DNA from: Bacteroidales bacterium
Lineage (GTDB): Bacteria > Bacteroidota > Bacteroidia > Bacteroidales > P3
Direction: 5' to 3'
DNA length: 46,994 nucleotides
Assembly (NCBI GenBank): GCA_024400505.1
Contig: JAKSMP010000016.1
Location: forward strand, 1-46,994
Each line of letters opens with the position of its first letter. Position 1 is the stretch's first letter. The position numbers and the translations under genes were made by a program. The notes beneath the pieces were generated by a model that was not told where the DNA came from, did no database searches, and was given only the letters and a program-made list of their open reading frames with translations. This document shows, piece by piece, positions 9,548 through 46,994 of the stretch.

Positions 9548-11692
9548 TTAGCGGGCGTCTTCAAGTGCCTTTTGCATGTCGCGTATTTGGTCGCGATATT
9601 TGGCAGCGGTAAGGAAGTCCATCTCTTTGGCGGCTTGCTGCATCTTGCGCTGTGCCTCTTTTATCTCTTTGCGAAGCTGTGCTTGGGTTTTGTTGCTCCA
9701 AATGATTTCGGGCTCTTGGGCATTGAGCGTGTCGTCCTCCGCCACGGTGGGCAGCGGAGTGGGGTTGTGGTGGGGGGAATAGTTGCCGCCATGGGCAGGT
9801 GTGTTGAGTGCATAGGGCGATGCCGCTATGTTGGGTATGTTGGGTCCCTCGGCTGCCTTGGGTTCGGTGTGCTCCTCGGCGGCGCGTTCAATCACGCTGG
9901 TGGAGCCAATGATGGACTCGGTGTTCTTTACAATCTGTTTGGGCACTATGCCGTGTTCCAGATTGTAGCGTATCTGCTTCTCGCGGTGGCGATTGGTTTC
10001 GTCGATGGCGCGCTGCATGCTGCCGGTTATGGTGTCGCCATAGAGTATGGCTTTGCTGTGTACGTTGCGTGCGGCACGGCCTATGGTTTGTATCAGGGCG
10101 CGGTCGCTGCGAAGGAAGCCCTCTTTGTCGGCGTCGAGGATGGCCACGAGTGATACTTCGGGCAGGTCCAAACCCTCGCGGAGGAGGTTGACGCCCACCA
10201 GCACATCAAACACGCCCATGCGTAGGTCGCGCATGATTTCCACGCGTTCTAGGGTATCGACATCGCTGTGGATGTATTTGCTGCGGATGCCCAGGTTGAG
10301 CAGGTAGGTGGTCATCTCTTCGGCCATGCGCTTGGTGAGGGTGGTTACAAGCACGCGCTCGTGTTTGCCCACGGTTTTTTCTATCTCGTCCAGCAGGTCG
10401 TCCACCTGGCTGATGGCGGGGCGCACCTCCACTACAGGATCCAGCAAGCCGGTGGGGCGGATGATTTGCTCCACCACCACGCCTTCGGCCTCGGCCAGCT
10501 CGTACTGGGCGGGGGTGGCGCTGATGTAGATGGTTTGCCCCGTGATGCCGTAGAATTCGTCGTATTTGAGGGGGCGGTTGTCAAGGGCGGAGGGTAGGCG
10601 GAAGCCGTATTCTACAAGGGATTTCTTGCGGCTGCGGTCGCCGCCGTACATGGCTCCTATCTGGGGGATGGTCACATGGCTTTCGTCAATCACCAGCAGG
10701 AAGTCGTCGGGAAAATAGTCGATCAAGCAGAAGGGGCGGTCGCCTTCGTTGCGGCCGTCGAAGTATCGGGAGTAGTTCTCGATGCCGCTGCAGTAGCCCA
10801 GTTCTTGAATCATCTCTAGGTCGTAGTTGACGCGCTCCTCCAGGCGTTTGGCCTCCAGGCCTTTGTCGATGGACAGGAAATAGTCGCGCTGGGCAAACAT
10901 ATCATCTTGTATTTGGCGGAGGGCGTTGGGCAAGTTTTCTTTGGAGGTGAGAAAGTTGCTGGCGGGATAGATGGTGATGTTGTCGAAGGTATCAAGCTTC
11001 TGCCCGCTCACGGGGTCGAAACTCTCAAGGGATTCAATCTCGTCGTCCCAGAAGGATATGCGGTAGCAGAAGTCGGCAAACGAGGGGAATACATCTACGG
11101 TGTCGCCCTTGACTCGGAATCGGCCATTGATGAACTCAATCTCGTTGCGCACGTATTGTCCATCGAGCAGCTGCATGAGCAGGGTGTCTCGACTGATGCG
11201 GTCGCCCACTTTGATGTTGACTGTGCCGCGCTTGAACTCAGCAGGGTTGCCAATGCCGTAGATGCAGCTGACGGAGCAAACCACTATCACGTCTCTGCGG
11301 CCGCTGAGTAGGGCCGAGGAGGCGCGGAGGCGAAGTTTGTCCAAATCGTCGTTGATGGCCAGGTCTTTCTCGATGTAGGTGTTGGTGGCGGCGATGTAGG
11401 CTTCGGGTTGGTAGTAGTCGTAGTAGGAAACGAAGTACTCCACAGCATTGTTTGGAAAGAACTGCTTGAATTCGCCATAAAGCTGAGCTGCCAATGTCTT
11501 GTTGTGGCTCAGTACTAGTGTGGGGCGGTTGAGCTGGGCAATCACGTTGGCCACGGTGAATGTTTTGCCCGATCCGGTGACTCCTTGCAGCACCTGCGCC
11601 CGCTGGCCATCTTTGATGCCTTGCACGAGTTGGCGGATGGCTTCGGGTTGGTCGCCCATAGGGGCAAAGTCGGATTTTATTTCAAATTGCAT
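9548..11692 (-). CDS. uvrB: Excinuclease ABC subunit B
   Basis: UvrB (714 residues) loads onto damaged DNA from UvrA and recruits UvrC in nucleotide excision repair. The start [19 protein letters not shown] is typical. Walker A is GVTGSGKT (37-44), the beta-hairpin begins [12 protein letters not shown], the DEAD-like box is LLVIDESHV, motif VI reads QTIGRAARN, and the C-terminal UVR domain ends the protein ([19 protein letters not shown]). The unusual part is a Pro-, Ala- and His-rich linker of about 60 residues before the UVR domain (roughly 610-670, [16 protein letters not shown]), making the protein longer than the usual 660-680 residues. A G-rich 7-bp-period array lies just upstream of its start. 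Confidence 0.98.
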
Positions 11693-11700
11693 TGCTGTGC

Positions 11701-11735
11701 GGGTTTAGAGGTCAGTGAATAGGGTTTAGGGAAAG
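11701..11735 (-). repeat. Heptad array between uvrB and the four-helix-bundle gene
   Basis: The plus strand reads TTTAGAG GTCAGTG AATAGGG TTTAGGG, four units of period 7. In transcript (minus) orientation it is C-rich and lies immediately before the uvrB start. It is the inverted counterpart of the array at 12182-12213. Confidence 0.6.
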
Positions 11736-11740
11736 ATACT

Positions 11741-12139
11741 TTAATGGGGCCGATTGCTGTTTTCTTGAATCTTGATTATTAGTGATTTTCTATAGCCTGA
11801 GAGCAGCTTTGACTCGGTTGATATCAGGTTGTTTATTCTGTCGAAAGTTTTTAGGTCAATATAGTTGAGGTCCAGAGATAAAAGAATCTGGGCATATATC
11901 TCCATGAGAGAGCCATGGGCGATTTCGATAAAGTGGAGCTGTTCTTTGGCAGATGACCGACTTGAACCTTCGGCGATATTTGAGGATATAGATATAGAGG
12001 CTCTGCGTAACTGGTCGCATAGGGCGTATTGTTCAAATTTGGGATAGTAGGGAAGAATTTGATACACATCTTTGGCAAGTGTTCTAGCGGTTTGGAACAT
12101 TTGCAGGTGCTCAAATGAATATGTGTGTACGTCGGTCAT
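11741..12139 (-). CDS. Four-helix-bundle protein (23S rRNA intervening-sequence/S23 family)
   Basis: The 132-residue product matches the small four-helix-bundle family first found in 23S rRNA intervening sequences. The conserved core is present: LRRASISISSNIAEGSSRSS (SNIAEG signature, about residues 45-65), followed by the helix KEQLHFIEIAHGSLMEIYAQ. Members form pentameric bundles; a relative (Avd) works with retroelement reverse transcriptases. None of those partners is seen here. The gene sits between two conserved genes and is bracketed by inverted 7-bp-period arrays, so it may have been inserted as a unit. Confidence 0.9.
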   Translation of the reverse strand: MTDVHTYSFEHLQMFQTARTLAKDVYQILPYYPKFEQYALCDQLRRASISISSNIAEGSSRSSAKEQLHFIEIAHGSLMEIYAQILLSLDLNYIDLKTFDRINNLISTESKLLSGYRKSLIIKIQENSNRPH

Positions 12140-12181: not shown

Positions 12182-12213
12182 TCTCTAATCACTAACCTCT
12201 AATCACTAAACTA
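12182..12213 (-). repeat. Heptad array downstream of the FAD oxidoreductase gene
   Basis: The plus strand reads CTAATCA CTAACCT CTAATCA CTAAACT (period 7). In transcript orientation it is G-rich and covers the end of the FAD gene. The last codons of that gene (LVIRG, stop at 12192-12194) are made of array units. Confidence 0.6.
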
Positions 12214-13763
12214 TTAATCACATTAATCCCGTCCAGGGCCGATGAAACGATGCCGCCGGCATAGCCTGCGCCTTCGCCGCAGGGGTAGAGTCCGCGGAGC
12301 TGGGGGTGCTGATAGGTGGTGTCGCGGGGGATTCTGACGGGAGACGAGGTGCGGCTCTCGACAGAGAGGATGCTGGCTTGGTCGGTGTAGAAGCCGCGCA
12401 TCTTGCGTCCGAAATCTTGCAGTCCTTGTTGCAGGCAGCGGGCCACGAAGGGGGGCAGCAGCTCATGTTGTGGCGCATTGAGGGTTTGTCCCAAATAGTT
12501 GCTCTTGTTGTTGGTGGAGCTCGGCTTCCCTTGGCAGAAGTCGGTGAGACGTTGGATGGGGGCGGTGATGCTTCCGCCAACGGCGTTGAAGATATGCCGC
12601 TCTACCTGTTGTTGGAAACGCAGGAGGGCAAGCGGGCCTTGCTGCGCGTCGGCAGGAAGGTCGGCAGGGGAGATGGTCACCGCGATGCCGCTGTTAGCAA
12701 ACCCCGAGCTGCGGTTGGCATTGCTCATGCCGTTGACCACTTGTTGGTGGCCATCGGTGGCGGCTGGCACAATCACTCCGCCAGGACACATGCAGAAAGA
12801 AAATACGCCGTGACCTTCGACCTGAGTTACCAGACTGTAGGCTGCGGGTGGTAGATATTGGAGTTGGGAACGATTGCTGGGGTTGATGTGGTATTGTATC
12901 TCGTTGATGAGAGGCTGTGGGTGTTCTACTCTCACCCCCAGCGCAAAGGGCTTGGCTTCGAGCAGCCATCCTTGGCGGTCGAAGAGTTCGTAGATGTCTC
13001 GGGCCGAATGTCCGGTGGCTAAGATGACGGCTTGGGCAAGGTGTTCCTGGCCTTGATGGTCAACCACGCCGCATACTTTGCTGCTGGCTCCATCGGGCTT
13101 GACAATCAGGTTGGTGATGCGGGTGGAGAAATGGTATTCGCCCCCATGGGAGAGGATGGTTTTCCGCATGTTGGCTATTATTCCGCTCAGACGGTCGGTG
13201 CCAATGTGGGCATGGGCATCAATGGTTAGCGTGGGGTCTGCCCCATGCTCGATGAATCGGTGCATCACCTCTTGCACATTGCCTCGTTTGGTGGAGCGGG
13301 TGTAGAGCTTGCCGTCGGAGTAGGTGCCGGCTCCGCCTTCGCCAAAGCACCAGTTGCTGTTGGGGTCCACCTGTTGGGTGCGTGTCAGGTGTGCTATGTC
13401 TTTCTTGCGTTCCTCCACCGGCTTTCCTCGCTCAAAGATGATGGGTTTGAGCCCCACTTCCAATGCCCGCAGGGCTGCAAAGAGTCCGGCAGGACCGGCT
13501 CCAACGATGATGACGGGAGGGCAGTTGTGGCAGTCTTGGTAATGTCCGCGGATGTCGGGTGCTAGGTATTCTTCTCCTACATATACCTCGGTGGTGGTGT
13601 GGTAGAGGATGCGGCCACGGCGAGAGTCGAGGCTGCGCCGTAGCACTTGCACTTGGACTATATCGCCCACGGGAATATTGGCTTTGCGGGCCACCTCTTT
13701 GCGGAGCAGGGTGGGGGTGGTGTATTGTTGTGGGGTGAGGTCTATTTCAATTACTTGTTTCAC
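12192..13763 (-). CDS. FAD-dependent oxidoreductase, COG2509-like
   Basis: The 523-residue product has an N-terminal domain of about 70 residues (IDLTPQQYTTPTLLRKEVAR) followed by the FAD-binding Rossmann motif VGAGPAGLFAALRALEVGLK and the ERGKPVEERKKD loop. It also has GEGGAGTYSDGKL and, at the C-terminus, LYPCGEGAGYAGGIVSSALD, which closes the FAD site. This layout is that of the large uncharacterised FAD-dependent protein family found across many bacteria. The substrate is unknown. The start at 13763 lies 5 bases after the porT stop, so the genes are probably one operon. The final residues are encoded by a heptad array. Confidence 0.9.
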   Translation of the reverse strand: MKQVIEIDLTPQQYTTPTLLRKEVARKANIPVGDIVQVQVLRRSLDSRRGRILYHTTTEVYVGEEYLAPDIRGHYQDCHNCPPVIIVGAGPAGLFAALRALEVGLKPIIFERGKPVEERKKDIAHLTRTQQVDPNSNWCFGEGGAGTYSDGKLYTRSTKRGNVQEVMHRFIEHGADPTLTIDAHAHIGTDRLSGIIANMRKTILSHGGEYHFSTRITNLIVKPDGASSKVCGVVDHQGQEHLAQAVILATGHSARDIYELFDRQGWLLEAKPFALGVRVEHPQPLINEIQYHINPSNRSQLQYLPPAAYSLVTQVEGHGVFSFCMCPGGVIVPAATDGHQQVVNGMSNANRSSGFANSGIAVTISPADLPADAQQGPLALLRFQQQVERHIFNAVGGSITAPIQRLTDFCQGKPSSTNNKSNYLGQTLNAPQHELLPPFVARCLQQGLQDFGRKMRGFYTDQASILSVESRTSSPVRIPRDTTYQHPQLRGLYPCGEGAGYAGGIVSSALDGINVINSLVIRG

Positions 13764-13768
13764 TGCGA

Positions 13769-14491
13769 TTATTCAAAGGTGAATGAGAGCATGAATGTGC
13801 GTGAACGCATGTCGGTGGTGGAGAGGGTGTAGAGGTCGTTGTCGTCCACTCTCAGGTCGATGAGCCCGAATGACATCTTGAGTTCCACGGCGAGTTTGAC
13901 ATAGGGGAGAAAGAAGCTGAATCCAACTCCCATGGTGTAGCGAATGTCTATCGGCTTAAGGCGGATGATGGACTCATCGTTGTTGTTCTGGTTTTTGAAT
14001 AGTGACGCAACATCTCTGCCCACATAGCCGCCCCCCAGAAGGTAAGGGCGGAAATTGCCGTAGCGCTTGGCCCTAACCTTCAGCTCGATGGGCATCTCGG
14101 CATAGACCGACTCCACGGTGCGCTGGGTGTCGTATTTCCAGTGGGTGGAGGTGTAGGCATCGGACCACCTGTAGGCCATATCGCGGCTGACAAGGGTCAC
14201 ACCCGGCAGCAGGCGTAGGTTGAGGAAGTCGTTCAACTTCAGGTCGCCTATCACGTTGATGTGGAATCCGGGGCTGTAGTATGATGTTGTGCCAAGAATG
14301 GTTTGCCGAATGCTGTCTTCGGGGGTGTAGTGCAGGTCGAATTTGGACTGAGTGTAGCCCACCTGGATGCCCCAATGCAGCATGCGGTCGTCAAATGAGT
14401 TGAGATTGCCTGGCCTCACTTGGGCATGGGCATTGAATCCCACCGAGGCTAGGAGTATCAATATGTATGCTAGTTTCTTCAAATGTTGCAA
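13769..14491 (-). CDS. porT: PorT-type outer-membrane beta-barrel protein
   Basis: The 240-residue product has a signal peptide (MQHLKKLAYILILLASVGFN, cleavage after AHA) followed by alternating amphipathic strands ending in an aromatic (RSRTFMLSFTFE), a typical outer-membrane barrel. The opening MLHWGIQVGYTQSKFDLHYT and the length fit PorT/SprT, a protein needed for type IX secretion in Porphyromonas and gliding Bacteroidota. Other beta-barrel families share these features, so the PorT identity is likely but not certain. Its start overlaps the asparaginase stop by 13 bases, indicating coupled translation. Confidence 0.75.
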   Translation of the reverse strand: MQHLKKLAYILILLASVGFNAHAQVRPGNLNSFDDRMLHWGIQVGYTQSKFDLHYTPEDSIRQTILGTTSYYSPGFHINVIGDLKLNDFLNLRLLPGVTLVSRDMAYRWSDAYTSTHWKYDTQRTVESVYAEMPIELKVRAKRYGNFRPYLLGGGYVGRDVASLFKNQNNNDESIIRLKPIDIRYTMGVGFSFFLPYVKLAVELKMSFGLIDLRVDDNDLYTLSTTDMRSRTFMLSFTFE

Positions 14492-15516
14492 GCTTCGTTA
14501 AGGGTGGTGGTAATCTCGCCGCGGAGCGAATACTGCAGGCTTTGGCGCACGTGGTCCGGGTCGTTGGGGTAGGTGCCCAGGATGTACATCATCTTGGTTA
14601 CGGCTGCCTCCAGGGTGATGTCGTTGCCTCCGATAACGCCAATGCGGCTAAGCTCACAGCTGGCCTCATACTGACCCATGATAACGGCACCTGCCTTGCA
14701 TTGGGTCACGTTCAGCACCACTATTCCACGCTGGATGGCATCGGCTATGGCATTGATGAACCAAGGCTCGGTGGGGGCATTGCCCGAACCGAAGGTCTCG
14801 ATGATGACGCCGTGCACCCCTTTGGCGTGCAATACCGACTCTACCACAGCGGGGGTGATGCCAGGGAAGAGTTTCAGCACGGCAATGTTGCGGTCAAATT
14901 GTTTCCTTACCTCAAGGGGCGCAGTGGGTTTGGGCAGGAAAAGGTGCTCTTTGAAGCTGAATTTGATGCCGGCTTTGGCCAAAGATGGGAAATTGAAACT
15001 GGTGAAGGCATCAAAATTCTCGGCACTGACCTTGGTACTGCGGTTGCCGCGATATAGGTGATTCTCGAAGAAAAGGCACACTTCGGGGATATAGGCCTCG
15101 CGGCAAGATGCAATCTCAAGGGCGCAGATGATATTCTCTCGTCCATCGGTGCGCAACACCCCCATGGGCAGCTGGCTGCCAGTGAGCACGATGGGCTTGG
15201 ACAGATTCTTGAACATAAAGCTCAGCGCCGAGGCGGTGTAGGCCATCGTGTCGGTGCCGTGCAAGATCACAAAACCATCGTATTTGTCGTATTGTTGCTC
15301 AATGATTTCTGCCAGCTCTACCCAAAACGACGGTGTCATGTTGGAAGAGTCGATGATGTTGTCCATCTGGCAGGAGTCGATGCTGTAGGGGCATTTCTTT
15401 AGTTCGGGCACCAAGTCGTAGATGTGGTCCATGGGGAAAGGCTTCAGCGAGCCATTCTCGTCCTGCACCATGCCGATGGTGCCGCCGGTATAAACGATTA
15501 AGACTTTGTTGAGCAT
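14479..15516 (-). CDS. ansA: Type I (cytoplasmic) L-asparaginase
   Basis: The enzyme hydrolyses L-asparagine to aspartate and ammonia. The N-terminal catalytic Thr lies in VLIVYTGGTIGMVQDENG, and the second catalytic segment is GFVILHGTDTMAYTASALSF with its HGTDT motif. No signal peptide is present. I use the ATG at 15516 (345 residues), which follows the previous stop by 22 bases and gives the usual start MLNKVLIVYTGG; an in-frame ATG at 15561 would overlap the thioesterase gene. It overlaps porT by 13 bases. Confidence 0.93.
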   Translation of the reverse strand: MLNKVLIVYTGGTIGMVQDENGSLKPFPMDHIYDLVPELKKCPYSIDSCQMDNIIDSSNMTPSFWVELAEIIEQQYDKYDGFVILHGTDTMAYTASALSFMFKNLSKPIVLTGSQLPMGVLRTDGRENIICALEIASCREAYIPEVCLFFENHLYRGNRSTKVSAENFDAFTSFNFPSLAKAGIKFSFKEHLFLPKPTAPLEVRKQFDRNIAVLKLFPGITPAVVESVLHAKGVHGVIIETFGSGNAPTEPWFINAIADAIQRGIVVLNVTQCKAGAVIMGQYEASCELSRIGVIGGNDITLEAAVTKMMYILGTYPNDPDHVRQSLQYSLRGEITTTLNEACNI

Positions 15517-38302: not shown

Positions 38303-39598
38303 TTGAAAGTTCTTTTTGTCAATACCAATTATCATTTTGGTGGTGCGGCACGGGCAGCACGGCGCATCATGGACTGCGTATGCAGGTTAGGCATACAGTG
38401 CCAGTACTTTTCCAATGGTAATGACATCAATCCCAGCACGGCTGATGAACGCTTAATAGTGCTCGATGATTTTCATTCCCATTCATGGATTGACAAGGCC
38501 TATTCTTGGTGCTACAGGAAACTGCAGAAAGCATACCAGCTTTTCCAATGGCGTCACATTGATACAGCCCATCGCCAATATTATCTTTCCGATTTCCGCT
38601 CCGAACCTTCGCACCGCGCGCTCCATAAGATTCCGTTTGATATCCTTCACCTCCATTGGGTCAATGGCCAGTTCTTCAATCTTCAGCAACTTCGGCATAT
38701 TCACAAACCCATTGTTTGGACACTGCATGATAGTTGGCCCTTCTGTGGGGTCTGCCACTACTTCCTTTCCTGCGAATCCTACAAGAGCCATTGCGGCTCA
38801 TGTCCTATGTTGAAACCCAAATCAGGCTCACCTCATAGCCGAGATTTGGCTTATTCTCTTTTCGAACAGAAACGGAAATTATATGCACACCTCAATCTCC
38901 ATATTGTGGCTCCAAGCCATTGGATGGCTCGCGCTGCCCAAGAGAGTGCGTTGTTAGGTGGTTTCCCCATCTCGGTCATACCCAATTGTATCGATGTCAA
39001 TCTATATCGCCGAGTCGATTATCAGCAGGCAGCAGCGCGCTGGATACCCGATGCCAATTCCAAGAAATCGTATATCCTCTTCGGTGCCGTAGCTGCCACC
39101 AGTGATACCATCAAAGGGTTCCGTCAGTTGGTCACCGCTTTGCGCCTTTTTGAACAGCAATTTGATTGCAGCAATGTCGAGTTGCTTATCTTTGGCTCCG
39201 ATACTCCCGTGCCGGGCTTGGATCTTCATATCCCGAGTCGCTACTTGGGTTATGTCAATAACGAAGCCGATATGGCCAAACTCTACAGCCTGGCTCATGT
39301 GGTGGTTGTGCCCTCCCAAACCGAGAACCTTTGCGGCGTCATCATGGAGTCGCTCTCCTGCAGCACCCCTGTGGTGGCGTTCAATATCGGTGGCAATTCC
39401 GATATGATTGACCATCAGCAGAACGGATACTTGGCCATCGACGAAGCCGATATGGCTCGTGGCATTGCGTGGTGCCTACAAAACAATACCGATGGACATC
39501 TCGGCGACAATGCTCGGCAAAAAGTGCTAACCCATTTCTCGCCAGAGGTTGTCAGCCGCCAATATGCCGCCTTGTATCAATCTCTCTTGGAGCGCTAG
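38303..39598 (+). CDS. Glycosyltransferase family 4
   Basis: I place the start at a TTG at 38303, which yields MKVLFVNTNYHFGGAARAAR, a normal GT4 beginning with the Gly-rich acceptor loop; the long upstream frame lies within the previous gene. The product (431 residues) has a GT-B fold: the C-terminal domain shows SLAHVVVVPSQTENLCGVIM and ESLSCSTPVVAFNIGGNSDM (the E-x7-E-type donor site). A Cys-rich stretch (CGVCHYFLSCESYKSHCGSC) may bind a metal, as in some related enzymes. Confidence 0.9.
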   Translation: MKVLFVNTNYHFGGAARAARRIMDCVCRLGIQCQYFSNGNDINPSTADERLIVLDDFHSHSWIDKAYSWCYRKLQKAYQLFQWRHIDTAHRQYYLSDFRSEPSHRALHKIPFDILHLHWVNGQFFNLQQLRHIHKPIVWTLHDSWPFCGVCHYFLSCESYKSHCGSCPMLKPKSGSPHSRDLAYSLFEQKRKLYAHLNLHIVAPSHWMARAAQESALLGGFPISVIPNCIDVNLYRRVDYQQAAARWIPDANSKKSYILFGAVAATSDTIKGFRQLVTALRLFEQQFDCSNVELLIFGSDTPVPGLDLHIPSRYLGYVNNEADMAKLYSLAHVVVVPSQTENLCGVIMESLSCSTPVVAFNIGGNSDMIDHQQNGYLAIDEADMARGIAWCLQNNTDGHLGDNARQKVLTHFSPEVVSRQYAALYQSLLER

Positions 39599-39658
39599 TC
39601 TTTCCTAGTAGCCCACCTTTATTAATCCAACGAAACAAATAAATTATTCAATAATATT

Positions 39659-40975
39659 ATGAAAATCACCGTAGCAGGTACCGGCTATGTCGGTCTCAGT
39701 ATCGCCACCTTGTTGGCTCAGCATCACCAAGTAACATCCGTTGATATCGTTCCCGAACGAGTCGATATGGTCAACAATCATCAGAGTCCTATCCAGGATG
39801 ATTATATCGAGGCCTATCTCGCTGGCTACAAGGCTCGCACCGATGAGGATATCCGTGCTTGGCGCGCAGGCAACACCGCTCACCTCGAGCCCATCACCCT
39901 CAACCTCCATGCCACCACCGATTGGGAGGAAGGCTATCGCCAAGCCGAATATGTGGTCATTGCAGCACCCACCAATTACGACAGTCAGAAGAACTTCTTC
40001 GATACCTCAGCCGTCGAAGATGTCATCCAGAAAGTCCTTCAGGTCAATCCCCAGGCCATCATGGTCATCAAAAGCACCATCCCTGTAGGCTATACCGAGA
40101 GCGTCCGCCAGAAGTTCAATACCCAGAATATCATTTTCGCTCCCGAGTTCCTCCGCGAGAGCAAAGCCCTTTACGACAACCTCTATCCCTCCCGCATCAT
40201 TGTTGGTTATCATCAATCCGATGCACGTCTCGAAGAACGTGCCATCCGTTTCGCCCAAATCATCCGCGAAGGAGCCATCAAGCAGGATGTTCCCATGCTC
40301 CAGATGGGCAGCACCGAGGCCGAGGCCGTCAAACTCTTTGCCAACACCTACCTTGCCCTCCGTGTCAGCTATTTCAACGAGCTGGACACCTATGCCGAAC
40401 TCAAAGGTCTCAACACTCAGCAGATCATCGATGGCGTATGCCTCGATCCCCGCATCGGCACCCACTACAACAATCCCTCTTTCGGCTATGGTGGCTATTG
40501 CCTTCCCAAAGACACCAAACAGCTGCTTGCCAACTACGAAGATGTTCCGCAGAACATGATGTCAGCCATCGTTGAGAGCAATCGCACCCGCAAGGACTAT
40601 ATCGCCGATGCAGTCCTCCGCAAGGCTGGTTGGTACGACTACACCACCAACAACCAGTATGGCCAGCAACCAGCAGCCGGCAGCCAGCAGCCAGTAGTCA
40701 TCGGTGTCTATCGTCTCACCATGAAGAGCAACTCCGACAACTTCCGTCAGTCTAGCATTCAGGGTGTGATGAAACGTGTCAAAGCCAAGGGCGCCAATGT
40801 GATTATCTATGAGCCCACCCTCGAAGACGGCAGCACCTTCTTTGGTAGCAAAGTAGTCAACGACCTCGCCACCTTCAAGCAGCAGTGCGATGCCATCATC
40901 GCCAACCGCTACGATGCCACCCTCGATGACGTCGCCGCCAAAGTCTATACCCGCGACATCTTCCGCCGCGACTAG
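39659..40975 (+). CDS. UDP-glucose/GDP-mannose-type sugar dehydrogenase
   Basis: The 438-residue product starts [20 protein letters not shown], the NAD-binding motif of UDP-glucose 6-dehydrogenases. It has the catalytic Cys in [20 protein letters not shown] and the C-terminal domain [20 protein letters not shown]. It oxidises a nucleotide sugar to a uronic acid for the surface glycan; UDP-glucose is likeliest. Between the central and C-terminal domains (residues about 335-347) lies a Gln/Ala/Pro insert, [12 protein letters not shown], encoded by five 7-bp units. This insert is not expected in the family. The conserved folds on both sides remain in frame. Confidence 0.9.
40663..40697 (+). repeat. 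Five-unit heptad array inside the dehydrogenase gene
   Basis: CCAGCAA CCAGCAG CCGGCAG CCAGCAG CCAGTAG are five perfect-length 7-bp units. The period matches that of the intergenic arrays. Confidence 0.8.
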
Positions 40976-40984
40976 TCCCCGAAA

Positions 40985-41068
40985 GCAGGTAGTAGGTAGT
41001 AGGTAGCAGGTAGTAGGTAATAGGTAGCAGGTAGTAGGTAGCAGGTAATAGGTAGCAGGTAGTGGTAG
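40985..41068 (+). repeat. G-rich heptad array after the sugar dehydrogenase
   Basis: About 12 units of AGGTAGT, AGGTAGC or AGGTAAT begin 10 bases after the stop. The gap 40976-41594 (619 bases) contains no gene: it holds this array, two copies of the GCGAAA element and two C-rich arrays. Confidence 0.9.
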
Positions 41069-41170
41069 AAAAAAATCGTCCCTTTCGCGCCTTCCGCTTG
41101 CTCCAGCAAGCCCACCCGTTAGCGACTTAGCCCGATAAAAAATTTCGCATCTTTCGCGTCTTTCGCGGTT
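41069..41170 (+). repeat. GCGAAA element, copy 1 (left end missing)
   Basis: It runs from AAAAAAATCGTCCCTTTCGC through the hairpin GCTTGC-TCCA-GCAAGC to the end TTTCGCGTCTTTCGCGGTT. The left terminal repeat is absent; the G-rich array abuts instead. Confidence 0.8.
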
Positions 41171-41180
41171 CCCAATCCCA

Positions 41181-41322
41181 CCGGCACCCGCCCCACCTAC
41201 TCCCTGCTCCCTACTACCTAAAAACCGGCACCCGCCCCACCTACTCCCTGCTCCCTACTACCTAAAAACCGGCTCCCGCCCACCTGCTCCCTACTACCTG
41301 CTCCCTGCTCCCTAAAATGCCT
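41181..41322 (+). repeat. C-rich array with a 44-bp tandem unit
   Basis: A unit starting CCGGCACCCGCCCCACCTAC repeats at 41181 and 41225 and, with changes, at 41269 (period 44). Each unit contains CCTACTC, CCTGCTC and CCTACTA heptads and ends in TAAAAA. Confidence 0.85.
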
Positions 41323-41337
41323 ACTCCTATTTTCATC

Positions 41338-41462
41338 AACCGCTAAAAACGCAAAATAACGCTAAAAAAATCGTCCCTTTCGCGCCTTCCGCTTGCTTCA
41401 GCAAGCCCACCCATTAGCGCCTTGAAATAAAAATTTCGTGCCTTTCGCGTCTTTCGCGGTTC
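41338..41462 (+). repeat. GCGAAA element, copy 2 (full length)
   Basis: The left end AACCGCTAAAAACGCAAAAT and the right end, read on the opposite strand as AACCGCGAAAGACGCGAAAG, form imperfect terminal inverted repeats of about 28 bp. The central hairpin is GCTTGC-TTCA-GCAAGC. No reading frame is present. Confidence 0.8.
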
Positions 41463-41465
41463 CCC

Positions 41466-41580
41466 CACCCACCTGCTCCCACCTACTACCTACTACCTGC
41501 TACCTACTCCCTAAAAACCGGCCCCCGCCCCACCTACTACCTACTACCTACTACCTGCTACCTAAAAAACTACTACCTTA
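41466..41580 (+). repeat. C-rich heptad array before the fimbrillin-type gene
   Basis: Units such as CCTACTA, CCTGCTA and CCTACTC repeat up to about 15 bases before the next ATG, with one CCGGCCCCCGCCCCA spacer. Confidence 0.85.
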
Positions 41581-41594
41581 AAAAAACTCCCCCC

Positions 41595-42437
41595 ATGTCC
41601 CGTTTCCCCCTCATTCTTCTCATTTCCCTACTCCTCCTCCTAGCCTCCTGTCACAAAGAATCCTCCTTTGTCTCTGTCTCGCTTGGCGTTTCAGGACTGG
41701 AGCAAGTGCAACGCAACGACTCCTTCGACCTGGGCAAAGGCCTCCTGGCCGACAACTGCACCCGCATCTCTTGCGCCCTCTTCCAGAATGGGAAGAAATA
41801 CAAAACCTTCACGCAGGACATCACTTCACCCACCTTCGGCAGCCTTCAGCTCCGCATCCCGGTAGGTGTGTATCAGATGGTGCTCATTGCCCATAGTGGT
41901 GCGCAGCATTGCACCATCTCCACTCCCGAGAAGATCACCTTCAACGGCAAATGCACCGACACCTTCTTCGCTTACGACACACTCTACCTCATCTCCGATA
42001 CCGCATTGTCGCTTACCCTGCGCCGTGCTGTCGCCATGTTCCGACTCCACATCACCGATTCTGTCCCCCCTGCAGTATCCACCATGCGGTTCTACTACAC
42101 CGGAGGCAGTTCCACCTTCGATGCCGTGTCCGGCTTCGGCTGTGTCAACAGCCGACAAACCGAGTATCGCGAGATCTTGCCCGAGATGGTGGGCCATACC
42201 GTCACCTTCCAAATCTACACCTTCCCCCATCAGGAACAGGATACCCTCACTGTCAACCTTCGAGCCCTCAACTCTTCCGAAGAAATCCTCTTTGAGGATA
42301 CCTTCAAGCCCGTTCCTATCCGGCTCAATTGGGTCACCGAGCACTCCACCAAGTTTTTCACCGACCTCAACCACGAGCGCACCGTCAACATCTCCTTGCA
42401 AGACTCTGCCCGTTGGTCCGGTACTATCACCTTCTAG
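41595..42437 (+). CDS. FimB/Mfa2-type fimbrillin-like lipoprotein
   Basis: The 280-residue product starts with a lipoprotein signal (MSRFPLILLISLLLLLASC, lipobox LASC). It continues with a beta-rich fold of the FimB/Mfa2 type: a first domain with YQMVLIAHSGAQHCTISTPE, then LSLTLRRAVAMFRLHITDSV and HTVTFQIYTFPHQEQDTLTV. Such proteins anchor or cap surface fimbriae. It ends 15 bases before the nucleotidyltransferase-kinase gene, so the two are probably cotranscribed despite different roles. Confidence 0.72.
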   Translation: MSRFPLILLISLLLLLASCHKESSFVSVSLGVSGLEQVQRNDSFDLGKGLLADNCTRISCALFQNGKKYKTFTQDITSPTFGSLQLRIPVGVYQMVLIAHSGAQHCTISTPEKITFNGKCTDTFFAYDTLYLISDTALSLTLRRAVAMFRLHITDSVPPAVSTMRFYYTGGSSTFDAVSGFGCVNSRQTEYREILPEMVGHTVTFQIYTFPHQEQDTLTVNLRALNSSEEILFEDTFKPVPIRLNWVTEHSTKFFTDLNHERTVNISLQDSARWSGTITF

Positions 42438-42452
42438 TCTCATCACTGAATC

Positions 42453-43625
42453 ATGAAAAAAGTCTTTGTCTCTGGTTGCTATGACCTCTTGCATAGTGGC
42501 CATGTCGAGTTCTTCCGCCAAGCCGCCCAGTATGGCGAACTCTATGTCGGTATAGGCTCCGACCGCACCATCCTGCATTACAAAAACCACAAGACAGTCT
42601 ATTCCGAGCAAGAACGCCTCTTCATGGTCAAGAGCATCCGCTATGTCAAAGAAGCGTATATCAACCAGGGCGATGGCATTCTCGACTTTCTCCCCACCCT
42701 CGATATCGTCCACCCCGACATCCTTGTGGTCAACAGCGATGGCGGCAGCGACTCCAAACGCCGCGTGTGCCAAGAGCGGGGAATAGAGTATATCGTACTC
42801 CAGCGCGACCCACACGAGGGTCTCGCCGCCCGCAGCAGTACCGACCTCAAAAAAAGTCCCTGCCAGCTGCCCACCCGCCTCGACTTGGCCGGCACCTGGA
42901 TTGATCAACCTTACGTCAGCTGCTATGCCCCCGGTTGGGCCATCACCATCAGCCTCGAACCCTCTTTCGAAATCCGTGAACGTTGCGGACTCTCCACCAG
43001 CACTCGCAATGTCATCAAGCGCATCTGGCCCTACCAGTTGCCCAATATGGATCCTGAAATCCTTGCCCGTTTGGTTTTCTGTTTCGAGAACCATCCGGAG
43101 CGTGAAGACGGCATCATCTCAGGCGCACAAGACGCTATCGGAATCTGTGTTCCAGGTCTTTGCCGCCATTACTACGACAACCACTTCTGGCCCGAACGAA
43201 TCGAGACATGTGAAGACGAGACAGTCCTCTCATGGCTCGAAAACCATCTGGTCATGATACCCATGGATCCCCGCATGCCGGGTTGCTCGGTTGTGGAGGG
43301 GAAAGACATCACCGAACCCAAGGTGATGGCCTTGGCCAAAGCTGCCAGCGACTGCTGGGCAGCAATCCTCAGTTGCGACCTCACATCTTTCGCCCAAGCC
43401 TATCGGGCATCCTTCGCAGCCCAGGTTGCCATGTTCCCCGCCATGATCCAAGGCAGCGTCCAACAATATATCGACCGCTATGCAGCCCTGCCAGAAGTCC
43501 TGGCTTGGAAGATGCCCGGAGCGGGTGGCGGTGGATATCTTGCCTGTGTCGTCACCGATGCCCCCGCATTCTGTCAATCCCACCCCGAATCCATCCCCCT
43601 CCGCATCCGCCGCTCCGGAATGTAA
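42453..43625 (+). CDS. Nucleotidyltransferase-GHMP kinase fusion
   Basis: The 390-residue product joins two domains. Residues 1-130 are a cytidylyltransferase-like domain with the HxGH site (SGCYDLLHSGHVEFFRQA) and a C-terminal RSSTDLK segment. Residues about 140-390 resemble GHMP sugar kinases: RLDLAGTWIDQPYVS, a degenerate GLSTSTRNV loop and PGAGGGGYLACVV (motif 3). Together they could phosphorylate a free sugar at C1 and activate it with a nucleotide, as in the unrelated fusion Fkp for fucose. The sugar is unknown; the next gene (gmd) points to GDP-sugars but does not prove it. Motif 2 of the kinase is weak. Confidence 0.8.
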   Translation: MKKVFVSGCYDLLHSGHVEFFRQAAQYGELYVGIGSDRTILHYKNHKTVYSEQERLFMVKSIRYVKEAYINQGDGILDFLPTLDIVHPDILVVNSDGGSDSKRRVCQERGIEYIVLQRDPHEGLAARSSTDLKKSPCQLPTRLDLAGTWIDQPYVSCYAPGWAITISLEPSFEIRERCGLSTSTRNVIKRIWPYQLPNMDPEILARLVFCFENHPEREDGIISGAQDAIGICVPGLCRHYYDNHFWPERIETCEDETVLSWLENHLVMIPMDPRMPGCSVVEGKDITEPKVMALAKAASDCWAAILSCDLTSFAQAYRASFAAQVAMFPAMIQGSVQQYIDRYAALPEVLAWKMPGAGGGGYLACVVTDAPAFCQSHPESIPLRIRRSGM

Positions 43626-43633
43626 ATGTCTTC

Positions 43634-43669
43634 AGGTAGCAGGTAATAGGTAGCAGGTAGTAGGTAGTG
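43634..43669 (+). repeat. G-rich heptad array after the fusion gene
   Basis: Units AGGTAGC, AGGTAAT and AGGTAGT begin 7 bases after the stop and run into AGTGGTAGAAAAAAA. The gap 43626-44217 (592 bases) contains no gene. Confidence 0.9.
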
Positions 43670-43684
43670 GTAGAAAAAAATCCC

Positions 43685-43720
43685 GGCTCCCTCCCACCTA
43701 CTCCCTACTCCCTCCTCCCT
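43685..43720 (+). repeat. C-rich heptad array
   Basis: CCTACTC, CCTACTC and CCTCCTC units lie between the G-rich array and the next GCGAAA element. Confidence 0.8.
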
Positions 43721-43730
43721 GAAATCCCCG

Positions 43731-43818
43731 AATTTCGCGCCTTCCGCTTGCTCCAGCAAGCCTCCCGTTAGCGACTTAACCCGATAAAAATTTTCGCATC
43801 TTTCGCGACTTTCGCGGT
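43731..43818 (+). repeat. GCGAAA element, copy 3 (left end missing)
   Basis: It starts AATTTCGCGCCTTCCGCTTG, holds the hairpin and CGATAAAAATTTTCGCATC, and ends in CTTTCGCGGTT. Confidence 0.8.
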
Positions 43819-43825
43819 TCCCCAA

Positions 43826-43930
43826 CCCGCCGGCACCCGCCCACCTGCTACCTACTCCCTGCTACCTACTACCTAAAAAAATCCCTGCACCCGCCCCACC
43901 TACTACCTGCTACCTACTCCCTGCTCCCTA
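43826..43930 (+). repeat. C-rich heptad array
   Basis: CCTGCTA, CCTACTC and CCTACTA units with two CCCGCCC(C)ACCT spacers connect copy 3 and copy 4 of the element. Confidence 0.85.
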
Positions 43931-43939
43931 AAATCCCCG

Positions 43940-44028
43940 AATTTCGCGCCTTCCGCTTGCTCCAGCAAGCCTCCCGTTAGCGACTTAACCCGATAAAAAT
44001 TTTCGCATCTTTCGCATCTTTCGCGGTT
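43940..44028 (+). repeat. GCGAAA element, copy 4 (left end missing)
   Basis: It is nearly identical to copy 3, with CTTTCGCATCTTTCGCGGTT at the right end. Confidence 0.8.
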
Positions 44029-44035
44029 CCCCAAC

Positions 44036-44176
44036 CCGCCGGCTCCCGCCCACCTGCTCCCTACTCCCTGCTCCCTACTACCTAAAAACCGGCTCCCGCC
44101 CCACCTACTACCTACTACCTACTCCCTGCTCCCTACTCCCTGCTACCTACTACCTAATAAACTCCCTGCTCCCTAA
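44036..44176 (+). repeat. C-rich heptad array before gmd
   Basis: About 15 units of CCTACTA, CCTACTC, CCTGCTC and CCTGCTA with CCGGCTCCCGCCCCA spacers end 40 bases before the gmd ATG. The last 40 bases (AATTAATAATTTAAATACAC) look like an ordinary leader. Confidence 0.85.
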
Positions 44177-44217
44177 ATCTCTCCCTCGAAAATTAATAAT
44201 TTAAATACACACAAATC

Positions 44218-45288
44218 ATGAAAAACATCGCTCTTATCACCGGTATCACCGGTCAGGACGGCTCATTCCTCGCCGAATTTCTACTTGAAAAAGGTTATGA
44301 AGTTCATGGAGTCATCCGTCGTAGTTCCTCATTCAATACCGGTCGCATCGAACACCTCTATCTCGACGAATGGGTGCGTGATATGAAGCAACAGAGACTC
44401 GTCAACCTCCATTATGGCGATATGACCGACTCGTCCTCACTCGTCCGAATCCTCCAGCAAGTGCGCCCCACCGAGGTCTATAATCTTGCCGCCCAAAGCC
44501 ATGTCAAAGTATCCTTCGACTGCCCCGAATACACAGCCGAGGCCGATGCCACCGGTGTGCTTCGCCTCCTCGAAGCCATCCGCATCTTGGGTATGGAGAA
44601 AACCTGTAAAGTCTATCAGGCTTCCACCTCCGAACTCTTTGGCCTTGTGCAAGAAGTGCCACAAAAAGAAACCACACCCTTCTATCCCCGTTCCCCCTAT
44701 GGCGTAGCCAAGCAGTATGGTTTCTGGATTGTCAAAAACTACCGTGAGTCATACGGCATGTTTGCCGTCAATGGCATCCTTTTCAATCACGAATCCGAGC
44801 GTCGAGGCGAAACCTTCGTCACCCGCAAAATCACCCTCGCAGCAGCCCGCATCGCACAAGGCTATCAAGACAAACTCTATCTGGGCAACCTCAACTCCCT
44901 CCGCGACTGGGGCTATGCCAAAGACTATGTAGAGTGCATGTGGCTCATCCTCCAGCATGAGACCCCCGAAGATTTCGTTATCGCCACAGGTGAATACCAT
45001 ACCGTCCGTGAGTTTGCCACCCTGGCATTCCACCATGTAGGCATCGAACTCCGTTGGGAAGGCGAAGGTGTAGATGAGAAAGGTATTGATACCGCCACAG
45101 GCAAAGTCCTGGTCGAGGTCGATCCCAAGTACTTCCGTCCTGCCGAAGTCGATCAGCTTCTCGGCGATCCCACCAAAGCCAAAACCCTCCTGGGCTGGAA
45201 TCCCACCAAAACCACCTTCGACCAACTCGTCCAGATCATGGTCTCCCACGACATGCGCTTCGTCCGCAAACTCCACCATAGCGAGTAA
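44218..45288 (+). CDS. gmd: GDP-mannose 4,6-dehydratase
   Basis: Gmd converts GDP-mannose to GDP-4-keto-6-deoxy-mannose, the precursor of GDP-fucose, GDP-rhamnose and related sugars. The 356-residue product has the NAD motif [20 protein letters not shown], the [15 protein letters not shown] segment, the catalytic Thr/Glu region [15 protein letters not shown] as YxxxK, and [17 protein letters not shown], which is diagnostic for Gmd. No fucose synthase (fcl) follows in this window, so the downstream 6-deoxysugar enzyme lies elsewhere. Confidence 0.97.
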
Positions 45289-45295
45289 TTGAGTG

Positions 45296-45360
45296 ATAGG
45301 TAGCAGGTATAGTGTAGGGTATAAGATGTGTATGGTATAAAGTATAATGGTATAAAGTAT
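45296..45360 (+). repeat. Short G-rich heptad array and GTATAA repeats after gmd
   Basis: AGGTAGC AGGTATA follows the gmd stop by 10 bases and passes into repeated GGTATAAAGTATAA (two copies). The gap 45289-45638 (350 bases) contains no gene. Confidence 0.7.
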
Positions 45361-45466
45361 AAATGTATATCACAATTTTCCCCCAGAATATCTCCCGCCG
45401 TCGGAGTCCGCACACCTAACAAATACCAATCAAATACCTGCTACCTCCTACCTGTATGGTGGGTGC

Positions 45467-45525
45467 GTCAGCCGTCCCCTCTTTAGAGGGGTCCGCCGTA
45501 AGGCGGGGGGTATGCTACGGCTGAC
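45467..45525 (+). repeat. Three-way-junction hairpin repeat
   Basis: An outer stem GTCAGCCGT (45467-45475) / ACGGCTGAC (45517-45525) encloses two hairpins, CCCCTC-TTTA-GAGGGG (45476-45491) and CCGCC-GTAA-GGCGG (45493-45506). The part GCCGTCGGAGTCCGCAC at about 45393-45409 resembles the sequence just after the outer stem, suggesting a second, broken copy. Confidence 0.75.
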
Positions 45526-45638
45526 GGAGTCAGCACAAATCCAATCTACCAATCAAACACCTGCTACCTAAATAACTCACTCTGCAGTCATCATTAAATC
45601 CAATTAAATAATTAATCATTTAAAAACGTAAAGTCAAC

Positions 45639-46532
45639 ATGAGAAAACTCCTTTCCCTTGCACTCCTCGCAGTGCTTTTCGTCGCTTGTACCAAGAACGA
45701 AGGCGAGTACACCATCAAAGCCAAACTCAACCTCCCCAACGTGTGGACCTCCGTGGCCTCCAAACTCGAAACCAATGGCGATCCCACCGCTCGTATGGGT
45801 ATGTACATCTTTGATAATAACGACGCCTATGTTGGCCTCGTGAACAGAGATATGGCCGGTGCCACCGATTTCACTGCCACAGCCACTCGTATTTCCACCG
45901 CTGGCCATTACACCCTCTATGGCTTTGCCTACATTCCCAATGCCGATCTGCTGCACAACACCGATGCATCTCCGATTACCCCCAGCTCAGTATTCTCCAT
46001 CAGTGAGCCTCGCGACATCTGTCTCGGCAGCCAAGAAATCACTGTGATCTCCTCCCAACTCAACTACACCACCACCATCACCCTCAACCACATCATGGCA
46101 CAGCTGGCACTCTCCGTTACAGGCGTTCCTGCCGATATAGATGCCATCAGCGTCACCCTCCCCAGCCAATCCAATCAGTTCGCCTTCGACGGCACCTTCA
46201 CTGGTACTGCAGCCACCCAGACCATCGATTTGACCCGTGCGGCCACAGCCGATGCCAATGGCAACTACATCTGGTCCTTCCCCGAGACCATCGTCTTCCC
46301 CTGTGCTGCCGGCACCACCTCCATGCCCATCACAGTAGTGGCAACCGATGCCACCCGCACCTACACCTTCAACACCGCCAGCACCACCTGCTGCACCAGC
46401 ACCACCCGCACCGTCCTCACCACCACCTGGAACACCCTCAACTACTACGTCACTGGCAACCTCTCCATCCAGCCCTGGACCACTGTCACCCAATCCGGCT
46501 CCTTCATCCTCGGCGACCCCTCCGTCAACTGA
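45639..46532 (+). CDS. Fimbrillin-like lipoprotein
   Basis: The 297-residue product begins with a lipoprotein signal (MRKLLSLALLAVLFVAC). The mature part is a two-domain beta-sandwich of fimbrillin type: SQLNYTTTITLNHIMAQLAL is the typical transition to the second domain, and IWSFPETIVFPCAAGTTSMP follows. The C-terminal part is Thr-rich with an internal CC (STTCCTSTTRTVLTTTWN). It may be a fimbrial subunit or tip protein, like the lipoprotein at 41595. It is isolated between repeat-filled gaps. Confidence 0.68.
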   Translation: MRKLLSLALLAVLFVACTKNEGEYTIKAKLNLPNVWTSVASKLETNGDPTARMGMYIFDNNDAYVGLVNRDMAGATDFTATATRISTAGHYTLYGFAYIPNADLLHNTDASPITPSSVFSISEPRDICLGSQEITVISSQLNYTTTITLNHIMAQLALSVTGVPADIDAISVTLPSQSNQFAFDGTFTGTAATQTIDLTRAATADANGNYIWSFPETIVFPCAAGTTSMPITVVATDATRTYTFNTASTTCCTSTTRTVLTTTWNTLNYYVTGNLSIQPWTTVTQSGSFILGDPSVN

Positions 46533-46540
46533 TAAAAAGG

Positions 46541-46628
46541 TAATAGGTAGTATGTAACAGGTAGCAGGTAACAGGTAATAGGTAGTAGGTAGTAGGTAGT
46601 AGGTAGCAGGTAATAGGTAGCAGGTAGA
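46541..46628 (+). repeat. G-rich heptad array after the fimbrillin-like gene
   Basis: About 12 units (AGGTAAT, AGGTAGT, AGGTAGC, AGGTAAC) begin 8 bases after the stop. The gap from 46533 to the window end holds no gene. Confidence 0.9.
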
Positions 46629-46675
46629 AGACAACAAGTAGAAACTAACAGGAATCATCCGGGACTCTAAACTTT

Positions 46676-46848
46676 GTTCCCTCCATCCTCCATTCTGAAC
46701 CCTAAACACTCCCCTCTCCACCCTCCACTCTGTCCCCTAATCTCTCCCCCCTAAACACTCCCCTCTCCACTCTGCTCCCTAAAACACCGGCTCCCGCCCC
46801 ACCTACTCCCTGCTACCTACTACCTAAAAGCCCTGCTCCCTATTTTCA
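46676..46848 (+). repeat. C-rich degenerate array
   Basis: First a CCCTCCA/CTCCCCTC-type stretch with AACACTCCCCTCTCCAC present twice, then the usual CCTACTC CCTGCTA CCTACTA units from 46801. Confidence 0.75.
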
Positions 46849-46850
46849 TC

Positions 46851-46971
46851 AACCGCTAAAAACGCAAAATAACGCTAAAAAACTACATCCCTTTCGCGCC
46901 TTCCGCTTGCTCCAGCAAGCCCTAAGTTAGCGACTTGAGAAATTTTCGCATCTTTCGCGTCTTTCGCGGTT
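46851..46971 (+). repeat. GCGAAA element, copy 5 (full length)
   Basis: Left end AACCGCTAAAAACGCAAAAT as in copy 2, central hairpin GCTTGC-TCCA-GCAAGC, right end TTTCGCGTCTTTCGCGGTT. The terminal inverted repeats are the same as in copy 2. Confidence 0.8.
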
Positions 46972-46994
46972 CCCCAACCCGCCGGCCCCCGCCC

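Follow-up and report, generated by a model that had tools for sequence, protein, structure and literature searches.

Tandem arrays of seven-base units, many of them of the AGGTAGY or CCTACTA type, were found at gene edges in the window, the whole stretch of 46,994 nucleotides analyzed here (positions 1-46994 of contig C8 of a Bacteroidales bacterium, whose genome of 2.09 Mb in 81 contigs is 73% complete). The arrays follow a gene-edge rule: at both ends of a gene the strand read outward is G-rich, and GG is not needed for this. The layout was independent of the heptamer unit and leaned the same way in related Bacteroidales. The preferred explanation, held tentatively and given slightly less than an even chance, is that these arrays are intergenic heptamer simple-sequence repeats which have slipped and been copied, and that their orientation at gene edges has been sorted by what translation tolerates.

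Orientation of the arrays in this genome

The window and a further 288 kb of the same genome, picked for repeat matches, were searched for arrays. Thirty-three array-bearing gaps were tabulated, and the 11 that contained both kinds of array all ran G then C. These comprised three co-directional gaps on the plus strand, three co-directional gaps on the minus strand, one convergent gap, two divergent gaps and two gaps at contig ends. At single gene edges the outgoing strand was G-rich for 13 of 14 arrays at 3' edges and for 4 of 4 at 5' edges, and nearly all near-edge arrays standing alone in their gaps obeyed the rule as well. Genes were taken from an in-house codon-score caller and not from curated annotation, and the edge counts omit arrays lying over 40 nt away from both edges or within 30 nt of equidistance. 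The sole exception among the 14 arrays at 3' edges is a C-array at 2622-2691 of locus L011, which lies upstream of an ATG at 2760 yet nearer to a stop (38 nt). An apparent exception at 1567-1627 of the same locus (contig C1) was seen by eye to be a C-array about 11 nt upstream of an ATG (1639) overlooked by the gene caller. In locus L012 a 1.7 kb gap (12979-14691) is dense with G-arrays and GGTGGGCGGGAGCCGG-type modules; four of its G-arrays lie 193 nt or more from any called edge, and a plus-strand open reading frame (13077-13601) extends into the first of these four.

Orientation was regular in the stretches examined from this genome (the window plus 288 kb of the 2.09 Mb), as the original prediction had anticipated. 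Its claim that the G-rich or C-rich strand follows transcription was not supported in that form, as the layout is strand-symmetric and present in convergent and divergent gaps, and is not a property of one transcribed strand. Since the layout of a gap is unchanged by reverse complementation, the rule alone cannot show that the direction of transcription matters.

The layout in related Bacteroidales

Relatives were Bacteroidales metagenome-assembled genomes, many of them named for rumen or gut samples. Eighty loci, the best 80 of 584 confirmed, were collected around the orthologue of the cytidylyltransferase-like gene at 42453-43625 of the window; the loci are related and not independent. Stretches of ten genomes, the sources of ten of the 80 loci, were additionally included; these genomes were picked because their loci showed arrays, and array densities in them, as in the stretches from the window's own genome, are no estimates. 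Arrays with identical first 30 bases were counted once in the edge-orientation, distance, two-array-gap and stop/start counts. Duplicates were kept in the period counts, the ten-genome sample, the unit classes, the table of gaps from this genome, the complementarity comparison and the counts at the homology-anchored gene.

The 80 loci contained 89 period-7 arrays with many different units, e.g. AGTTAAT, TGAGAGT, GTTTAGT and GCCAATA. The 18-base AGGTAGY pattern was matched in only 8 of 60 relatives, with at most 16 matches per genome. At 3' edges in the relatives the outgoing strand was richer in G for 55 of 73 arrays and richer in C for 17, with one tie (p = 8e-6); the corresponding numbers at 5' edges were 26, 10 and one tie of 37 (p = 0.011). 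Gaps with two arrays ran G then C in 23 of 27 cases, C then G in three and mixed in one, which brings the total with this genome included to 34 of 38. At the homology-anchored gene C outnumbered G in all 12 leader arrays (11 loci), in two cases by a single net base, and G outnumbered C in 7 of the 9 trailer arrays (6 of 8 without a near-identical copy, L039/L042). Most of the 80 loci were without an array at this gene; the arrays are therefore sporadic among relatives. Unit classes with a G-rich outgoing strand included CTAGAGT (9 of 9) and GAGAATT (15 of 18), and some small classes, such as ACAATTT (3 of 3) and GTCAACA (2 of 2), were reversed. In the AGGTAGT class 3 of 18 arrays at edges were reversed. 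Arrays of other periods were too few to judge, with outgoing G to C counts of 11 to 5 for period 8, 7 to 6 for period 9 and 3 to 5 for period 11.

Period 7 dominated the selected samples. It accounted for 56 arrays in the stretches from this genome, 89 in the 80 loci and 63 in the ten genomes, whereas no other period between 4 and 12 exceeded 6, 11 and 14 arrays, respectively. The small random samples of the genus and the order contained few arrays (12 and 1 of period 7); the figures for comparison were 11 for period 9 in the former and 2 in the latter. Arrays lying within called genes numbered 2 of 56 for this genome, 28 of 89 for the 80 loci, 14 of 63 for the ten genomes and 4 of 12 for the genus sample, at a coding share of 78-87%. 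The heptamers are concentrated outside coding sequence.

Stop codons, start codons and leader folding

Any codon in a heptamer unit recurs in all three frames, because 7 equals 1 modulo 3. C is absent from all stop codons, and G is present in each of ATG, GTG and TTG. Of the 64 skewed arrays of this genome, 54 had all three frames closed on the G strand and 50 had no frame closed on the C strand. The number of start codons per unit on the G and C strands was 0.20 and 0.00 in this genome and 0.60 and 0.06 in the relatives. At 3' edges 44 arrays had more frames closed on the sense strand than on the antisense strand, and 13 had fewer. The 3' bias in the relatives peaked where the array overlapped the stop and faded past 10 nt: G to C counts were 35 to 4 for arrays overlapping the stop, 10 to 2 at 0-3 nt, 5 to 2 at 4-10 nt, 4 to 3 at 11-25 nt and 1 to 6 at 26-40 nt.

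Folding was compared for arrays in their native and reversed orientations. When 36 leader arrays were reversed in silico, the mean predicted folding energy went from -17.0 to -25.1 and the openness of the start site from 0.58 to 0.48. The native leader had the weaker fold in 29 of the 36 cases (p = 6e-5) and the more open start site in 27 (p = 4e-4). Trailer arrays alone had a native mean of -3.2 and a reversed mean of -2.2, and the native fold was the stronger in 22 and the weaker in 9 of 41. Trailers thus fold slightly better in the native orientation, and weak folding is therefore a feature of leaders only. Bacteroidetes are described as having no functional Shine-Dalgarno signal and as favouring unstructured leaders, in the portion of Accetto and Avgustin 2011 (PMC3155529) drawn on here. 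A G-poor, weakly folding leader suits these bacteria, because their translation relies on unstructured leaders and not on Shine-Dalgarno pairing.

An explanation for the layout could be as follows. Heptamer repeats would grow by slippage and spread by copying, here often together with a quasi-palindromic element. The C-poor strand 3' of a gene would supply stops in every frame within about 20 nt, closing the frame when an array adjoins or overlaps the stop of the gene. The G-poor strand 5' of a gene would present almost no ATG, GTG or TTG, and its weak folding would keep the start site open. Partial complementarity of the two arrays of a gap would accompany the G-then-C order. We infer both the origin by slippage and copying and the selection on translation.

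Several findings weigh against this explanation. The gain in openness was confined to C-rich leaders, of which 23 of 26 were more open than their reversed forms, compared to 2 of 8 G-rich leaders. Among eight single leader cases the change in openness was at most 0.04 or went the wrong way in four, and a non-ATG start was used in two. The sense strand at 5' edges had fewer start codons in only 26 of 38 unequal cases, and 5' arrays alone in their gap leaned only 9 to 4. Arrays at 3' edges in the relatives with equal stop content on both strands still stood at 21 G to 8 C, and stops are therefore not the whole cause of the layout. The ten-genome sample taken alone (9 to 5 at 3' edges and 6 to 3 at 5' edges) was not significant. 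GGGAATC, a unit of the Xanthomonas and Nostoc repeats in the sections seen of Rehm et al. 2015 (PMC4692102), has by our own reading no stop codon on either strand, yet the layout there is the same.

General gene-edge composition was considered as a cause and rejected, as gaps without arrays showed no comparable difference in G and C at their edges. Loading of Rho by C-rich RNA is considered a weak candidate explanation for the arrays, because many units in the relatives have only one C per seven bases.

Heptamer arrays in the window

The arrays and associated repeats of the window were as follows.

40984-41062, plus strand: G-rich heptamer array AGGTAGY, about 11.9 copies, 8 nt past the stop of the UDP-glucose dehydrogenase-like gene at 39659-40975; all three sense frames are closed by stops within 23 nt.
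41180-41306, plus strand: 44-base macro-repeat, 2.9 copies, consisting of CCGGCNCCCGCCC, C-rich heptamers and CCTAAAAA.
41338-41461, plus strand: quasi-palindromic element, AACCGCTAAAAACGC ... CGCTTGCTTCAGCAAGC ... GCGTCTTTCGCGGTT.
41476-41563, plus strand: two C-rich heptamer arrays of CCTACTA type, ending 31 nt upstream of the Mfa2-like gene at 41595-42437; the plus strand has zero ATG, GTG or TTG and zero stops in all frames.
43633-43668, plus strand: G-rich heptamer array, 7 nt past the stop of the cytidylyltransferase-like gene.
43681-44159, plus strand: five C-rich heptamer arrays and two element copies, partly within a 209-base macro-repeat, ending 58 nt upstream of the GDP-mannose dehydratase-like gene at 44218-45288.
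45298-45309, plus strand: short G-rich run of about two units, 9 nt past the stop at 45288, under the array threshold.
45435-45459, plus strand: short C-rich run between the stop at 45288 and the Mfa2-like gene at 45639-46532; a single further YTACCT unit is present at 45564 in the same gap.
46535-46630, plus strand: G-rich heptamer array, 2 nt past the stop at 46532.
46680-46825, plus strand: C-rich heptamers of another type, CTCCACY, and of CCTACTA type.
12183-12221, minus strand: weak array, 2.7 copies of 14, G-rich in transcript sense, overlapping the 3' end of the open reading frame ending at 12192.
11693-11740, minus strand: degenerate stretch, C-rich in transcript sense, upstream of the uvrB-like gene start at 11692.

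The first AGGTAR units were located at 40987, 43634, 45298 and 46538, following stops that end at 40975, 43625, 45288 and 46532. The spacings are 11, 8, 9 and 5 bases for the UDP-glucose dehydrogenase-like, cytidylyltransferase-like, GDP-mannose dehydratase-like and Mfa2-like genes, in that order, and the original prediction of AGGTAGY units shortly after the stops of four genes was correct. The CCTACTA-type units that it placed before the next gene were likewise found upstream of the genes starting at 41595, 44218 and 45639, the last with few units. The same order had been claimed for a minus-strand block at 11.7-12.2 kb. The arrays there are indeed G-rich and C-rich in transcript sense; however, they are weak and degenerate, and they sit in two gaps flanking an open reading frame at 11741-12139 rather than in one.

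Tandem Repeats Finder gave best scores of 128, 61 and 138, corresponding to the G-rich blocks at 40987, 43634 and 46538. The block at 45298, with about two units only, was absent from its array list; the gap concerned (45289-45638) is under the array threshold and outside the 11 gaps counted above, and by eye it also runs G then C. The pattern GTAGNAGGTAGNAGGTAG, an 18-mer searched with one mismatch allowed, gave 231 + 70 = 301 matches in the 2.09 Mb genome, compared to 1 + 0 for a control pattern read backwards. The heptamer arrays are therefore beyond chance.

Pairing within a gap

Another explanation, though an unlikely one, is that the complementary arrays of a gap pair as one long RNA hairpin, which would act on the transcripts of both sides as a signal for processing, stability or termination. 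The RNA of the gap at 40970-41600 has a predicted fold of -193 kcal/mol (z = -13.5 compared to 20 shuffles), in which the G-array folds onto the C-arrays; to this extent the long-range pairing of a G-rich tail with a C-rich leader, as originally proposed, is supported. The G-array alone folded no better than shuffles. The G and C units of the same gap were also nearer to complementary, with a mean of 1.86 mismatches of 7 (28 gaps) compared to 2.99 for units of other genomes in equal draws; the same-genome figure of 2.51 sets a mean against a minimum and is no matched control. The G-then-C order in 34 of 38 two-array gaps may be counted for the hairpin, but the order is left unexplained by it, as a C-then-G gap would fold equally well. 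Terminator-like sites numbered 9, compared to 5.6 +/- 2.1 expected, and no Rfam match was obtained at E 0.1 in 39500-46994. For the 80 loci, marked inverted similarity spanning the gap (z over 3) was present in 25% of 40 gaps with arrays and in 17% of 265 other gaps; for this genome the shares were 18% of 17 and 6% of 97. Gap-spanning palindromes as a general rule were rejected, as only a minority of gaps have them. A gap hairpin may have a role in RNA ends.

By eye, the gap past the homology-anchored gene in loci L031 and L044 contains a gap-spanning inverted repeat, with a phrase like TTTGCGGGATTTGCGTGAGG and without heptamers. This is another repeat type occupying the same place.

The element, the macro-repeats and copying

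The larger gaps contain the quasi-palindromic element together with the 44- and 209-base macro-repeats. The element copies at 41338-41461 and 46851-46971 have the ends AACCGCTAAAAACGC and GCGTCTTTCGCGGTT flanking a CGCTTGCTCCAGCAAGC hairpin, and related copies or part-copies have cores at 41090, 43740, 43949 and 46899. With two mismatches allowed, the end phrase of the element was matched 27 times in this genome and 26 times in the same-genus genome G020, in which the TTTCGCG end phrase frames a different core and no AGGTAG array is present.

Insertion of a unit resembling a miniature inverted-repeat transposable element, bounded by a G-array on one side and a C-array on the opposite side, would give G on the left and C on the right in either orientation, and selection would not be needed. 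The strand-symmetric layout across all four gene arrangements fits such a unit, and composite copies do recur: one composite gap had 63 matches in this genome, itself counted. Among 13 copies of the element core in 22 loci scanned, a CCTACTA-type array followed on the same strand in nine and other C-rich text in three, the remaining one being cut by a contig end. Insertion is nevertheless considered improbable as the cause of the layout. The relatives keep the layout with unrelated units, the end phrase was not found in 120 relative loci nor in 38 of 40 other relatives, and nearly all lone near-edge arrays also follow the rule. Furthermore, the sole Y1_Tnp gene found adjoins other repeats.

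This gene was encountered when a link to repetitive extragenic palindromes (REPs) and their associated tyrosine transposases (RAYTs) via the tetranucleotide GTAG was considered; the link was rejected. The single Y1_Tnp match (G000:C34:35392) is flanked by other repeats, and neither AGGTAG nor CTACCT was present in the surrounding 3.3 kb, which contains different inverted repeats and a single short run of TTGTCAT heptamers. The locus itself (L133, G000:C34:35392-35730) has an open frame of 162 amino acids that matches Y1 transposase, with paired inverted repeats on both sides, and looks like a RAYT with its own REPs.

Contigs end inside or near heptamer arrays at position 46994, at the starts of C1, C9, C25, C26, C62 and C81 and at the ends of C22 and C31. 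The assembly therefore seems to break at the arrays, and the array numbers are lower bounds. The heptamer layout may also account for the contig breaks at intergenic gaps in this genome.

Two-layer G-quadruplexes as the common cause of placement are very improbable: AGGTAGY does give GG every seven bases, and evidence from circular dichroism exists for GGGNATC-type repeats (Rehm et al. 2015, PMC4692102, in the part available), but skewed arrays of relatives whose units lack GG or CC still have a G-rich outgoing strand in 50 of 71 cases, with 21 for C.

Significance

A single layout across unrelated Bacteroidales units, tied to stop content and leader folding, gives testable predictions for translation and RNA ends. 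A more speculative and rather doubtful extension is that the arrays form a punctuation layer, in which the heptamer unit is rewritten across unrelated phyla; the layout (C-poor trailers that carry stops and open, G-poor leaders, with partial complementarity inside a gap) and the period would be selected, and the letters would not. If true, intergenic repeats would be a functional, frame-independent gene boundary and not tolerated debris.

Comparison with known heptamer repeats

Tandem heptanucleotides in Calothrix were reportedly described by Mazel et al. in 1990 under the acronym STRR; like the present arrays they are tandem heptanucleotides in a bacterial genome. They are mentioned in the introduction of Rehm et al. 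2015 (PMC4692102), where heptamer repeats are also stated to be over-represented in many bacteria. Among the literature matches listed, the layout was studied in none but PMC4692102 and PMC4679880, as far as the text available of these two goes, and heptamer terms were not found in PMC4060949. The role of heptamer repeats is left open in the available text of both Rehm et al. 2015 and MacGregor 2015 (PMC4679880).

TAACTGA direct repeats occur in Beggiatoaceae, Cyanobacteria and some Bacteroidetes (MacGregor 2015, PMC4679880). They resemble the arrays described here in having period 7, in being mostly intergenic and in lying beside gene edges, whereas the unit here is AGGTAGY. One strand of TAACTGA closes every frame with stops, and the author regards this as probably a major factor in the distribution of the repeats.

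The closest likeness is to the heptameric G-rich repeats of Xanthomonas and Nostoc, with the units GGGAATC and GGGGA(C/T)T (GGGNATC type), which favour the sense orientation within 50 bp after stops and the antisense one within 50 bp before starts, according to the accessible text of Rehm et al. 2015 (PMC4692102). Like the present arrays they have period 7, are mostly intergenic and dispersed, and show the same layout of the G strand; that they lie nearer to the 5' neighbouring open reading frame, whatever its orientation, is listed as a further likeness. In contrast, the Bacteroidales arrays have GG and not GGG tracts, have other units that differ between related species and belong to another phylum, and leader folding was compared here in both orientations. 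As reported in that text, the layout is already known; the present analysis adds that it occurs in Bacteroidales, does not depend on the unit and is strand-symmetric, and contributes the test of folding and stop codons.

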